Assembly: GCA_003696505.1 (NCBI GenBank)
Contig: RFHC01000074.1
Coordinates: 1 to 40,757, forward strand
Direction of reading: 5' to 3'
DNA: 40,757 nucleotides
From: Deltaproteobacteria bacterium
GTDB lineage: Bacteria; Desulfobacterota; Deferrimicrobia; J040
The notes under the pieces: generated by a model
Told to the model about the DNA's origin: nothing
Database searches by the model: none
Seen by the model: the letters and a program-made list of their open reading frames with translations, nothing else
Made by a program: the position numbers and the translations under genes
Part shown: piece after piece, positions 28,181 through 34,480 of the stretch
Layout: every line of letters starts with the position of its first letter
Position numbering within the stretch: the first letter of the stretch is position 1

Positions 28181-29008
28181 ATGTCAGGGAAGTGGGGATT
28201 CATCGACTGCAGGGGGAAGGTCGTCATTTTCCCCCGTTTTCGAGAGGCCGGGGATTTCTCCGCAGGGCTTGCCCGGGTTAGGGAAAACAGCCTGTGGGGA
28301 TACATCGACCGGAGGGGAGAGTACGCAATCCCCCCGGAATTTGAGGATGCTCTCGACTTCAGCGAGGGACTTGCCAGCGTCCAGGTCGGCGGAAAGTGGG
28401 GGTACATCGACAGTTCGGGCGAATTCCGCATCGACCCCCGGTTCGATTTCGCGGGGCGTTTCTCTGAAGGCCTGGCGCCGGTCCTGTCAGGAGGGGTCTG
28501 GTTTTTCGTTACCCCCCGGGGGGAAAGGTACAACCACATGCAGTTTGCCAATCTCTGGGGATTCTCTGAGGGGCTTGCGCCCGTCTCCATACGGGGTAAG
28601 TGGGGATACGTGGACAGGCGGGGCAAGTTGAAAATCAGACCCGTCTTCGAGGACGCCCGGAGTTTTCGTGAAGGTCTGGCGCGTGTCCGGGTCGGAAACA
28701 GGTGGGGTTTCATCACGGCGGCGGGGAAATTCGCAATCACTCCCGTGTTTGAAGATGCCGGGGACTTCTCTTCCTCGGTTGCGCCGGTCCGGGAGAGGGA
28801 GAGGTGGGGATTCATCACCCGCGAGGGGAGATACGTCATTACGCCCGGTTTCGAGTGCGCCGGGTCGCTGAAGGAGGGGAGAATCGCCATATCGTTTCGG
28901 GGGAAGTGGGGATACATCGACAGGGGGGGTGACATTCTCATTTCTCCCAGATATCTCTTCTGCGGAGACTTTTCGGAAGGCCTGGCCCGTGTCTGGGTGG
29001 GAGAGTAG
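28181..29008 (+). CDS. WG-repeat protein (eight 34-aa repeats)
   Basis: GKWGFID, LWGYID, KWGYID, VWFFVT, KWGYVD, RWGFIT, RWGFIT, KWGYID at a 34-residue spacing. Confidence 0.88.
   Translation: MSGKWGFIDCRGKVVIFPRFREAGDFSAGLARVRENSLWGYIDRRGEYAIPPEFEDALDFSEGLASVQVGGKWGYIDSSGEFRIDPRFDFAGRFSEGLAPVLSGGVWFFVTPRGERYNHMQFANLWGFSEGLAPVSIRGKWGYVDRRGKLKIRPVFEDARSFREGLARVRVGNRWGFITAAGKFAITPVFEDAGDFSSSVAPVRERERWGFITREGRYVITPGFECAGSLKEGRIAISFRGKWGYIDRGGDILISPRYLFCGDFSEGLARVWVGE
28187..29008 (+). repeat. Eight in-frame approximately 102-bp coding repeats (WG repeats)
   Basis: 3 + 8x34 = 275 aa, exactly the ORF length; (K/R)WG(F/Y)(I/V)(D/T)..G....P.F..A..F.EGLA.V consensus. Confidence 0.85.
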
Positions 29009-29078: not shown

Positions 29079-29153
29079 TGGAGCGGGCGACGGGATTTGA
29101 ACCCGCGACTTCGACCTTGGCAAGGTCGCACTCTACCGCTGAGTTACGCCCGC
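29079..29153 (-). tRNA. tRNA-Gly (anticodon GCC), CCA encoded
   Basis: Reverse complement GCGGGCGTAACTCAGCGGTAGAGTGCGACCTTGCCAAGGTCGAAGTCGCGGGTTCAAATCCCGTCGCCCGCTCCA folds as a cloverleaf; GCC anticodon, GGTTCAAATCC T-loop. Confidence 0.96.
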
Positions 29154-29197: not shown

Positions 29198-29266
29198 CTC
29201 TTCAGGAGGAACTTCCTCAAGTTTTCTCAGGCGGGTCCGAAAATATTGTTGTAAACAGGAGAGATA

Positions 29267-31204
29267 ATGGAGAAAGTGGAGAAGAAAGAGGTTTTCTCCC
29301 TCGTCGTCGGTCCGTGTGAAAGGGAGTTGTCATCTCTTTCCCCGAGGGCGGAAGAGGGGGGCACGGGTATCGACCTGTTTGCCGTGAAACAGGCAGTAAA
29401 TGGCGGGTCCCTCAAAGTCGTGTTTCAATCCCGGGAAAAAGAGAGGGTCCGGGATGCGAGAAAACTCCTCGAGGAGAAGGGCATTCCCGCCGCTGTCGTG
29501 TCTACCGGGGAAATGAAGGAGGTGAGATTCCTTTTCCCGGCCTTTTCCTGGAAAGAGGGGGGGAAAGAAATCCTCTTCTCCGACAGGACGGGGAAAAATG
29601 TCTCCTTCAGGAAGGACGAGAAGGTTCTCGTCACGCTGACCTCAAAGGACGGAATGTTCGTCTCCCGGAAAAAGGCGGCTCGCCTTCTTTCCGCTGCCGG
29701 AGAGGAGGTGTCTGCCGGGGAAGTCCTCTCCCACGTGTTTATCGAGGGAGGGTTTATCGGCGTTTTCTCGCTGGATGAACCGAAGGGAATCGTCGTCGAC
29801 ACGAATCGCTTCGACTACTCATTCCTCGGGGAGCAAAGGAGCCTTTCCCGGAACGTCAACGCGAGGGCGCTTTTCAGGAAAATCATCGCTTCTTTTCCCG
29901 CTCCCGTGGTGGATGCCAATTTCGGACCGGGTGCTCTCCCGTCAATCGGGGATGGGGACCTGAAACCGGAAAAAATCCTCAGGACTTTCGCATACTACTC
30001 GGTTTTTATCTCGCGTGCCCTGAGAAACGGACTCCTTGAAAAGAGCGACCTCCCCCGGGTGAAGACTGAAGGAGAGGGTGGAGAGTTTTACTGGGTGGGG
30101 AAGCCCGGAAGGGCAGGGAAACAGAGAGTCGCAGGGGAATCTGGAGAGGCTTCTTCAACCTCTCTCTCCCCTCCCCCCGTCCCTCCCAGGTCCTTCCGCC
30201 CGAGGAGGATTTTCCTCGGACTCAGGCCGGGAATCTTCGATGACTTCAAACGCGGCTGGGGATTAGAGGGTCTCCCCTTCATCCTCCGGGTGGTGCTGGG
30301 TCCTCTTTCTCTCGTTTTCATTTTTCTCGCTTATGCCTCGAGGAGTCCCGTCCTTCTCGCCGCAGGTCTGGCTTCCTTTTCCGTCGTTTCCTTTGCCCTT
30401 TCCTTCATCCTCCTCAAGCAGAAGCGGGAGGTGGAAAACGTCCCCACGGCAAAACTCCGGTCCCTCCCCATGGGTCTCGTTGAAGTAACCGGGCGGTGCA
30501 GGAGGAAGCATTTTCTCGTTTCTCCCGTCAGTTCAATTCCCTGCGTGTATTACTCTTACGTGATTTTAGAGAGGGTATACCGGACGGGGAAGTCGAGGGT
30601 GGTAGTGAGGGAGTGGGGGGACAGCGGTCCTGTCCCTTTCATTCTGGAAGACGAAACGGGACGGGTCACCGTAGACCCGAAAAACGCCTCGATAATCGGC
30701 GGGAGGACCCAGACGTTTTCCGGAAGGGAAAAACCGTCCATTTCCCCCGGGGGTGTTTTCCTCGGAGAAAACGTGACGGTAAAGGAGAACATAATCCCCG
30801 AAGGGGAGCAACTCTACGTGCTGGGATACGCGTCTCCCGCAAGGAGCCTTGCCGAGGACCGGGAGAAAAAAATCAGGGAGCGGATAAAGAATTTAAAGAA
30901 AAACGCCGATAAATTAAAGGAATTTGACGAAGATGGAGATGGCCAGATAGACTCTTTCGAGTGGGAGAAGGCAAGGCGAGCGGTGGAAATGGAGGTCCTC
31001 CTCGAGAAGGATTCGGGAGAGAGTGAAATCGTCATTACCCGGCCCCCGGAAGGAGGTGTCTTCATTATTTCCGACAGGTCCGAAAGAGGGCTCGTGAGGA
31101 AACTGGCCTTTCGGTCTGCCCTCACGTTTGGCCTTTCCATCGCGTCGGCTGCCCTCGCCGTTTTCCTGATTACGGGCATTTTCGCCCGAGGAGGTGGACC
31201 ATGA
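29267..31204 (+). CDS. Membrane protein with unknown N-terminal region, GIDE-like domain, EF-hand loop and C-terminal TM
   Basis: CVYYSYVILERVYRTGKSRVVVREWGDSGPVPFILEDETGRVTVDPKNASI ... GEQLYVLGYA resembles GIDE family; TM hairpin about residues 340-390, EF-hand DEDGDGQIDSFE, C-terminal TM; followed by lemA. Confidence 0.75.
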   Translation: MEKVEKKEVFSLVVGPCERELSSLSPRAEEGGTGIDLFAVKQAVNGGSLKVVFQSREKERVRDARKLLEEKGIPAAVVSTGEMKEVRFLFPAFSWKEGGKEILFSDRTGKNVSFRKDEKVLVTLTSKDGMFVSRKKAARLLSAAGEEVSAGEVLSHVFIEGGFIGVFSLDEPKGIVVDTNRFDYSFLGEQRSLSRNVNARALFRKIIASFPAPVVDANFGPGALPSIGDGDLKPEKILRTFAYYSVFISRALRNGLLEKSDLPRVKTEGEGGEFYWVGKPGRAGKQRVAGESGEASSTSLSPPPVPPRSFRPRRIFLGLRPGIFDDFKRGWGLEGLPFILRVVLGPLSLVFIFLAYASRSPVLLAAGLASFSVVSFALSFILLKQKREVENVPTAKLRSLPMGLVEVTGRCRRKHFLVSPVSSIPCVYYSYVILERVYRTGKSRVVVREWGDSGPVPFILEDETGRVTVDPKNASIIGGRTQTFSGREKPSISPGGVFLGENVTVKENIIPEGEQLYVLGYASPARSLAEDREKKIRERIKNLKKNADKLKEFDEDGDGQIDSFEWEKARRAVEMEVLLEKDSGESEIVITRPPEGGVFIISDRSERGLVRKLAFRSALTFGLSIASAALAVFLITGIFARGGGP

Positions 31205-31767
31205 CCGGTGCTGTCGTCATCGTCGTCCTGGGACTCCTTATCCTGGGATGTATTTTTTACGGAGTGTCCATTTACAACGGACTCGTCACGGTGAAGAACA
31301 ACATCGACAAGTCGTGGAGCAACGTGGAAGTTCTCCTCAAGCAGAGGCACGACGAGTTGCCGAAACTCGTGAAAGTCTGCGAGAGGTATATGAAGCACGA
31401 GAGGGAAACCCTGGAAAGAGTCATCAGGGCGAGAAATTTTTCTGAGTCGGCTTCAACTCCCGAGGAGAGGGGAAAGGCCGACGGGATGGTCGCAGAGGCC
31501 CTCAAATCGCTCTTCGCCGTTGCAGAGAGATATCCTGAACTGAAGGCGGACGAGCAGTTTTCCCACCTCCAGGAGAGGATTTCCCGGCTCGAAAACGAGA
31601 TTGCCGACAGGAGAGAACTCTACAACGAGTCGGTGAACATCTACAACATCAGGATTGAGAGGATACCGGACGTCTTCATCGCCCGCGCCATGGGTTTCGA
31701 GAAGAGACCCCTCTGGCATGCTCCTGCGTCAGACCTGAAGGACGTGGAGATAACTTTCAGTTCTTAA
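31201..31767 (+). CDS. lemA: LemA family protein
   Basis: N-terminal TM, IYNGLVTVKNNIDKSWSNVEVLLKQRHDELPKLV, RRELYNESVNIYNIRIERIPDVFIARAMGFEKRPLW. Confidence 0.92.
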   Translation: MTGAVVIVVLGLLILGCIFYGVSIYNGLVTVKNNIDKSWSNVEVLLKQRHDELPKLVKVCERYMKHERETLERVIRARNFSESASTPEERGKADGMVAEALKSLFAVAERYPELKADEQFSHLQERISRLENEIADRRELYNESVNIYNIRIERIPDVFIARAMGFEKRPLWHAPASDLKDVEITFSS

Positions 31768-32297: not shown

Positions 32298-33392
32298 ATG
32301 AAAGGACCACGGTCGGTTACGAGGAGAAAAAGCGCGGTCGTTTTCGCTCTTTTTCTCTCCCTCACCCTGTTTCTTCCCCTCGCCGGGGCTTTCCTCACCG
32401 GTTTCGACCTCTCCTCCCTATCCACTTTCCCGCCCGAAGGAAACTTTCAGGGAAATGGGGGGGTGAGCATTCCCTTCACGCTCTTCGCCTTCGCTGTGGG
32501 AACAACTCTCCTCCTCGTATTCATCCTCACGTACATCCGGGGATATGAGGGAAGGGCACGGGAGAGGAATAGATTCCCCCGATGGGGATGGGGAGGCGTC
32601 CTTTTCCTCCTCGGCGCATGGGTCCTCGCCTGGACCCGATTTGACTGGTTTGCCCCATTACAAAGGCACACTTTCACACCTCTCTGGCTCGGATACATCT
32701 GTGTGGCCACAGCCCTCTCAGAGAAACTTCACGGAACCTCTCCTGCCCGGGAGGACCCTCTCTTCTTCATCTCCCTCTTCCCGGCCTCTTCGCTTTTCTG
32801 GTGGATTTTCGAGTTCCTCAACCGCTTCGTGGGAAACTGGGAATACCGCGGGCTGGGGACAATCACGGCGGGGGAATACGTCGCCCTGGCAAGCGTTTCC
32901 TTCTCCACCGTCCTCCCCGCAGTGGAGACGACCTCATTCCTCTTCAGGGGTTATCTCGGAGAGGAGAGGGTGAGGAATTCGGGGGTCGTGAAAGAGGCGG
33001 TGCTCCCTTCCCGGAGATGGATGACCTACATCCTCCTCTTTTCTGGAGCGGTGACGCTCTTCCTCATTCCTGTCTTCCCACAGTTTCTCTACCCCTTTCT
33101 CTGGATATCTCCGGTGCTCATCGTCGGTCCCCTCACCTCCATCGCAGGACTTTCTCCTGACGAAGGAGACCCCGTCATTGCTTCTTACGGCCTTGCAGCT
33201 CTCGTGTGCGGGTTTTTCTGGGAGACGTGGAACTGGAAAAGCCTTGCTCACTGGGTTTACCACGTCCCCCTCGTGCCTTCCTTGAAGCTCTTCGAGATGC
33301 CCCTTCCCGGATACTTCGGGTACCTTCCATTCGGGGTGGAGTGCTTTCTTTTCATCGTTCTCGTGAAGTATCTCGTGAGAGGTGACCTGTGA
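32298..33392 (+). CDS. Uncharacterised polytopic membrane protein
   Basis: Many hydrophobic segments rich in W/F; AGGAG SD just upstream of the ATG; no recognised family. Confidence 0.75.
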   Translation: MKGPRSVTRRKSAVVFALFLSLTLFLPLAGAFLTGFDLSSLSTFPPEGNFQGNGGVSIPFTLFAFAVGTTLLLVFILTYIRGYEGRARERNRFPRWGWGGVLFLLGAWVLAWTRFDWFAPLQRHTFTPLWLGYICVATALSEKLHGTSPAREDPLFFISLFPASSLFWWIFEFLNRFVGNWEYRGLGTITAGEYVALASVSFSTVLPAVETTSFLFRGYLGEERVRNSGVVKEAVLPSRRWMTYILLFSGAVTLFLIPVFPQFLYPFLWISPVLIVGPLTSIAGLSPDEGDPVIASYGLAALVCGFFWETWNWKSLAHWVYHVPLVPSLKLFEMPLPGYFGYLPFGVECFLFIVLVKYLVRGDL

Positions 33393-34480
33393 AGAGGACG
33401 GGAACGACGGACCTTCCCCTCCACGGGGGAAAAGCTCCCCGGTGGCTCTTTGAGAGGATGTCTCTCCTGGCGGGTGAAATCGTGTCCGCCATCGCTCTTG
33501 AATTCGGCCCCGTCGAGGTGCTCCGACGGCTTTCGGACCCGGCATGGTTTCAGGCATTCGGGTGCGTCCTCGGCTTCGACTGGCACTCTTCCGGGGTCAC
33601 GACGACGGTGACCGGAGCGATAAAGGAAGGGTTGAAGGGGAGAGAGGAGGAAGTCGGAATTTTCCCCTGCGGGGGAAAAGGGGGAGCGTCGAGAAAGACC
33701 CCCGGAGAAATTCTCACTTTTTCCGATAGGGTGGGGACCGATGGGGATTCCCTCGTCTACGCGAGCAGAATCTCTGCCAAGGTGGACAGTGCGGCCGTCC
33801 AGGACGGGTATCAGATTTATCACCACGCCTTCTTCTTCACGAGGGAAGGGGAGTGGGCAGTGGTTCAACAGGGGATGAACGAGGAGAGGAGGAGGGCACG
33901 GAGGTACCACTGGATATCAGAGTCTGTGAGAGATTTCGTCGAAGAGCCGCACGCTGCCGTCTGCTGCGACGGCAGGGAGAAGGTCCTGAACCTGGTGGCG
34001 AAAGAGAGCTCCTCCACCCGGTCGATAATCGCAGAGCTGTCAAGAATGGATCCGGAGAAGGTGGTGAAGCTCGTTGCCCGGGCCAACGAGGGGAGGGGGA
34101 GGCATCTGGAAATGCCGGTGAGGCATCCTGTCAGGGGTGAAGATATCCGGCCGGAAAACCTGAGGAGGATACTTCTCGACACGTACGAGAAGCAGCCGGA
34201 GGACTTCGAGACGCTCCTCGGAGTGAAGGGAGTGGGGCCGAAGACTCTCCGCGCTCTCTCCCTGGTCTCTGAGGTCATTTACGGAGCTCCTCCCAGTTTC
34301 CGGGACCCGGCGCGCTTTTCCTTCGCTCACGGGGGAAAGGACGGGACTCCCTACCCCGTCAACAGGGCGGAATACGACAGGACCATCGACGTGATGAGGG
34401 GGGCCGTGGAGAAAGCAAAAATCGGGAGGAAGGAGAAGATGGAAGCGCTGAAGAGGCTCTCCTTCCTCTTCCCCTCGTGA
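33389..34480 (+). CDS. DUF763 domain-containing protein with helix-hairpin-helix motif
   Basis: MKRTGTTDLPLHGGKAPRWLFERM N-terminus and FGCVLGFDWHSSGVTTTVTGAIKEGL typical of DUF763; LLGVKGVGPKTLRALSLVSEVIYG HhH. Confidence 0.85.
   Translation: MKRTGTTDLPLHGGKAPRWLFERMSLLAGEIVSAIALEFGPVEVLRRLSDPAWFQAFGCVLGFDWHSSGVTTTVTGAIKEGLKGREEEVGIFPCGGKGGASRKTPGEILTFSDRVGTDGDSLVYASRISAKVDSAAVQDGYQIYHHAFFFTREGEWAVVQQGMNEERRRARRYHWISESVRDFVEEPHAAVCCDGREKVLNLVAKESSSTRSIIAELSRMDPEKVVKLVARANEGRGRHLEMPVRHPVRGEDIRPENLRRILLDTYEKQPEDFETLLGVKGVGPKTLRALSLVSEVIYGAPPSFRDPARFSFAHGGKDGTPYPVNRAEYDRTIDVMRGAVEKAKIGRKEKMEALKRLSFLFPS

Follow-up and report, generated by a model that had tools for sequence, protein, structure and literature searches.

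Does a bacterial membrane protein that carries a GIDE domain and an EF-hand form a functional unit with the LemA protein encoded immediately behind it, and what might such a pair do? To our knowledge, LemA has no agreed function. BAM proteins occur in both bacteria and archaea, and what the BAM/GIDE domain did ancestrally has been stated to be an open question (PMC4457424). We addressed this question through two overlapping genes in a 40,757-nucleotide contig of a deltaproteobacterium (this whole stretch of analyzed DNA is referred to as the window), combining profile searches, structure prediction, comparison of loci across genomes and phylogenetic trees.

Architecture of the Gene Pair

Both genes lie on the plus strand. 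The first (29267..31204, ATG start), preceded by a likely ribosome-binding site AGGAGA (29257..29262), encodes the 645-aa GIDE/EF-hand membrane protein; the second, lemA (31201..31767, 188 aa), begins inside it, the stop of one and the start of the other overlapping in ATGA just as originally predicted, and its ribosome-binding site GAGGAGG (31188..31194) is located within the 3' end of the GIDE gene. The second gene clearly encodes a LemA (Pfam PF04011, E = 1.3e-47, 161.8 bits vs. a cut-off of 26.2) with a hydrophobic N-terminus. A scan for promoters and terminators yielded signals no more than expected by chance. The surrounding genes in the window include one for a 275-aa protein with at least seven WG repeats (28181-29008, plus strand; Pfam 6.5e-83), a tRNA-Gly gene just downstream of it (29079-29153, minus strand) and one for a DUF763 protein (33389-34480, plus strand; Pfam 2.6e-137).

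A GIDE-like domain had been proposed for residues ~400–540, and Pfam indeed places one there with a score above threshold (PF12483, E = 3.8e-12, 46.4 bits vs. 23.6), while no NCBIfam family covers this protein. The Pfam alignment is split into two stretches, residues 456–522 (profile positions 29–104), within a beta-rich part spanning residues 403–524 (30473..30838), and residues 584–632 (profile 108–157; 31016..31162). Thus, the EF-hand helix-loop-helix found between them (residues 525–583; 30839..31015) interrupts the GIDE domain between profile positions 104 and 108 and is not, as had been assumed, a module following it, and the last transmembrane segment forms part of the GIDE model. The profile position at which the first stretch stops is ~104–115 in most relatives.

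The EF-hand itself stands as predicted. Its 12-residue loop, DEDGDGQIDSFE (residues 554–565; 30926..30961), is canonical, with ligands at positions 1, 3, 5, and 12 and Gly at position 6, and is flanked by helices in the AlphaFold model; Pfam EF-hand models score below cut-off on this protein (E = 0.0056). It is retained by every homologue extending to the C-terminus (81 of 81), short forms from other phyla among them, and across 63 aligned sequences positions 1, 6, and 12 are invariant and positions 3 and 5 are always Asp or Asn. One of the two patterns in the scan of 84,980 species described below was an EF-hand peptide, which biases it toward this feature; the loop is also present in all 11 proteins recovered with the Pfam GIDE model alone, a set that was not selected for the EF-hand.

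Hydropathy analysis reveals three hydrophobic segments, namely a hairpin of TM1 (residues ~336–354; 30272..30328; AlphaFold helix 338–358) and TM2 (363–381; 30353..30409) and a C-terminal TM3 (621–639; 31127..31183), all matched by AlphaFold helices, so that the hairpin and the C-terminal segment of the original prediction are both supported. TM2 of the window protein is followed by a positive flank, KQKRE, and in homologues the 16 residues after TM2 contain on average 4.4 Lys/Arg vs. 1.0 Asp/Glu, with the hairpin loop and the C-terminal tail nearly free of charge. From this positive charge, together with the absence of a visible signal peptide at the protein start, we infer that the N-terminal domain, GIDE and the EF-hand are cytoplasmic. 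The BAM domain of MAPL resides in the intermembrane space (PMC4457424), whereas the charge distribution here suggests the cytoplasm, and the two orientations may be different.

The N-Terminal Region

The first ~300 residues had been regarded as unrecognized. This remains correct with respect to family databases (no Pfam or NCBIfam match to residues 1–300 of the window protein, and no convincing one to the N-terminal region of 22 family members) and no longer applies to the fold of the first ~80 residues. Confident AlphaFold models were obtained for the window protein (pLDDT 84.2, pTM 0.63) and for its homologue from Pelovirga terrestris (L069; pLDDT 89.4, pTM 0.87). The region comprises a beta-alpha-alpha-beta-alpha-beta unit (residues 1–80; 29267..29506), an alpha/beta part without a known relative, which contains the family-invariant Asn198 (residues 81–260; 29507..30046), and a Pro-rich linker modeled with low confidence (residues 261–335; 30047..30271).

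Foldseek searches with the first ~80 residues returned ClpS and the L7/L12 C-terminal domain (CTD) with probabilities up to 1.00, at E-values of only 0.05–0.6 and with best TM-scores of 0.64–0.69 by target length; the L7/L12-CTD structures 2zjq_5, 6gb2_BL, and 1ctf were matched with probabilities of 0.87–0.99 (E = 0.1–0.6). A search of predicted viral structures again recovered ClpS and L7/L12 CTD (best E = 0.006). The remaining ~180 residues had no PDB match, and the whole model gave nothing significant; hits to the OB-fold protein PriB, with a Foldseek probability of about 0.15, were set aside.

Profile comparison by hhalign helped to discriminate between these two families of the same fold. 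The score against L7/L12 (PF00542), 21.9 over 49 co-linear positions, exceeded the maximum of 17.6 obtained in 150 column shuffles, with no Pfam sequence match to PF00542 alongside, and the score against ClpS (PF02617), 13.8, fell inside the shuffle range. Furthermore, at the place of the ClpS N-degron loop (Asn-Asp-Asp after strand 1), where the compared ClpS sequences carry NDDYT, the N-domain alignment shows no conserved Asn or Asp. The first ~80 residues are thus predicted to have an L7/L12-CTD/ClpS-type fold, the profile score favoring L7/L12. A ClpS-type N-degron adaptor was rejected: the fold agrees with it; the pocket loop and the profile score do not. The window protein also departs from L7/L12 in lacking the N-terminal dimer domain, and from both L7/L12 and ClpS in carrying this fold as one part of a larger membrane protein, together with a new alpha/beta domain. 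As a separate observation, no ClpS gene was found in the window's genome, and across the phylum just 7 of 39 sampled genomes contain such a gene.

The N-terminal unit represents a domain family absent from Pfam, and it also occurs as a free protein of ~270 aa in four genomes that have no GIDE match (one copy being truncated to 215 aa). A SPOR domain in the free protein was discounted (a single weak Pfam match, E = 0.0017, with 19.1 bits where 21 are required), and a candidate split form with the N-domain and GIDE in two overlapping frames (L036) was left uncounted, a frameshift being its most likely origin. One free copy, the only one located near a lemA among those examined, is convergent to a TPM-lemA pair (L131:5540-8314), possibly by chance.

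Distribution and Forms of the Family

Pfam GIDE matches are found in 14 of 395 genomes of the phylum, most of them in frames of 619–687 aa, and a profile of the N-terminal region detects 13 strong long-form genes in the same genome set. The distribution is patchy, as within the window's own class a relative is present in only one of 26 genomes, that of the window itself. The scan of 84,980 species yielded 251 relatives, from which 80 loci were kept; these belong mostly to Desulfuromonadales and other Desulfobacterota, with a few labeled as Zixibacteria, Nitrospirae, Omnitrophota, Myxococcota, Elusimicrobia, and Edwardsbacteria, and the relatives share ~23–32% identity with the window protein. 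None were found in viral contigs and plasmids. The pair is widespread in sulfur- and metal-reducing bacteria plus some relatives, and its domain composition, which had appeared unusual, turns out to be the normal form among Desulfobacterota relatives of many genera.

Some genuine family members are missed or under-scored by the Pfam GIDE model (e.g., L133:1541-3664 and the P. terrestris protein, L069:4876-6909, with 20.9 bits vs. 23.6 required), and the GIDE/EF-hand family is for this reason probably under-counted by databases. One long-form relative of 580 aa (L132; genome G168, contig C92) is missing the EF-hand end, with no lemA lying within 9 kb, which may reflect either a loss of both or a frameshift.

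A short GIDE-EF-hand form without the N-domains (305–346 aa) is present in six lineages, which group together in the GIDE-core tree (support 96/91) and indicate that the GIDE-LemA core does not require the N-domains. L022, placed inside the long-form group, has probably lost its N-domains, and the label "short" given to L043 in this tree is a contig-end artefact. Judging from this unrooted tree, one event, either a fusion or a loss, is sufficient to account for the remaining forms.

Linkage to a Distinct LemA Clade

A lemA gene is positioned directly downstream and on the same strand in 74 of 74 relatives with enough sequence, as well as in the window (in the other six of the 80 loci, the contig ends within 277 bases), the median gap in the relatives' loci being 34 bp. 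The same order is observed in loci of Elusimicrobiota, Omnitrophota, Nitrospirota, Myxococcota, and Edwardsbacteria, and no other gene was found to recur in most GIDE-lemA loci. In a group of Desulfuromonadales loci, lemA is followed by a gene for a small J-domain protein (L069:7567-8109 and seven others) with the conserved tail FNFxYxxAxEKxKxxYxRGxDGVFRK.

LemA proteins are encoded in 79 of 118 sampled Desulfobacterota genomes. Among 106 LemAs placed in a tree, a branch with support of 100/100 separates the 76 GIDE-linked sequences, that of the window among them, from 30 GIDE-free ones (the best Pfam scorers of the same phylum). When 19 low-scoring unlinked LemAs, none with a GIDE gene nearby, were added, the linked group remained intact (98/86) and was recovered in all bootstrap trees. 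The window's genome encodes a second LemA, which adjoins a TPM-domain protein (Pfam 3.8e-39) on contig C4 (L217:654-2164, minus strand), the TPM frame preceding and slightly overlapping that of LemA. Hence, this genome carries two separate LemA systems, and the GIDE-linked LemA differs from the TPM-linked one both in its clade and in its neighbor.

Taken together, the fixed adjacency, the separate LemA clade and the presence of two LemA systems in one genome provide good support, at the level of genomic context, for viewing the GIDE protein and its own LemA as a dedicated, co-inherited module and putative functional partners. The partnership suggested by the original prediction has thereby been strengthened.

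Discussion

The window protein shares with GIDE/BAM proteins (PF12483, including eukaryotic MAPL/MULAN/MUL1) a GIDE domain scoring above cut-off and located beside membrane segments. It is distinguished from MAPL/MULAN/MUL1 by the lack of a RING, by the EF-hand inserted in the domain, by the extra N-terminal domains and by the LemA partner; furthermore, a TM hairpin precedes GIDE here, whereas MAPL has one TM on each side of BAM. The likeness to MULAN/MAPL emphasized earlier does not extend to E3-ligase activity: no RING is detected by Pfam, and the protein has only three Cys in all (17, 411, and 426), none of them C-terminal. Bacterial GIDE proteins as such were already known. Although the architecture described here occurs in many taxa, we found no characterization of it in the literature searched on GIDE with LemA or EF-hand (mostly outside subscription journals), and that literature likewise yielded no account of the inserted EF-hand, the LemA clade or the N-domain.

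As to function, we tentatively lean toward a Ca2+-responsive, cytoplasm-facing membrane adaptor or scaffold working with its own LemA, a reading that we consider plausible while stopping short of calling it probable. The soluble parts would be directed toward the cytoplasm, and GIDE would lie on the membrane surface and bind LemA, itself helical and anchored in the membrane; Ca2+ bound by the EF-hand, situated within the GIDE fold and adjoining the last TM, would alter GIDE-LemA packing, and the N-terminal domains, which elsewhere exist as a free protein, would bring in a partner from the cytosol. A strict need for the EF-hand and lemA is made doubtful by L132, which may itself be frameshifted.

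A single EF-hand can instead be structural. Free Ca2+ in the cytoplasm, the predicted location of this one, is normally low, and the motif is unpaired and below the Pfam cut-offs, which would fit a constitutive envelope protein without Ca2+ signaling whose EF-hand is structural or serves another cation; we regard this as somewhat unlikely, given that the Ca-ligand positions are kept in every homologue reaching the C-terminus, across several phyla, despite the low overall identity.

It is also unlikely, and slightly more so, that GIDE and LemA act as a membrane-shaping pair, bending or organizing the membrane with the EF-hand merely tuning or stabilizing them. The analogy is drawn from MAPL, proposed to act in mitochondrial vesicles, and from MamQ, a LemA relative of magnetosome membranes that has LemA homology in common with the protein studied here. 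A link between MAPL vesicles and outer-membrane vesicles has been discussed (PMC4457424). The MamQ model (NF040966) does match this LemA weakly (75.5 bits), but the NCBIfam equivalog cut-off of 250 bits excludes its identification as MamQ, and genes for vesicle or coat proteins are not among recurrent neighbors.

Protein quality control, with the ClpS-type N-terminal fold bringing clients to a GIDE-LemA membrane platform, appears improbable: ClpS is among the top structural matches, and the J-domain gene (Pfam DnaJ 7.7e-24) after lemA in eight distinct Desulfuromonadales loci offers a local hint, but the profile comparison favors L7/L12 and leaves ClpS within the shuffles, the NDD loop is absent and the window lemA has no adjoining J-domain gene. 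Finally, that the adjacency is inherited gene order only, the two proteins not working together, is hardly credible, since, even with one phylum supplying most loci, the arrangement holds in the loci from Elusimicrobiota to Edwardsbacteria listed above while other neighbors do not recur, and the GIDE-linked LemAs form a clade of their own.

Returning to the adaptor reading, a broader and considerably more speculative extension, which we rate as quite unlikely, is that the GIDE/BAM domain with its inserted EF-hand and own LemA clade would be a Ca2+-gated adaptor of ancient bacterial origin, showing the role of the MAPL BAM domain before the RING was acquired, namely that of a membrane-surface scaffold with a LemA-type helical partner. 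Overall, the fixed GIDE-EF-hand/LemA pair, in a branch that includes a named isolate, P. terrestris, provides the GIDE and LemA families with a common partner and a candidate ligand.
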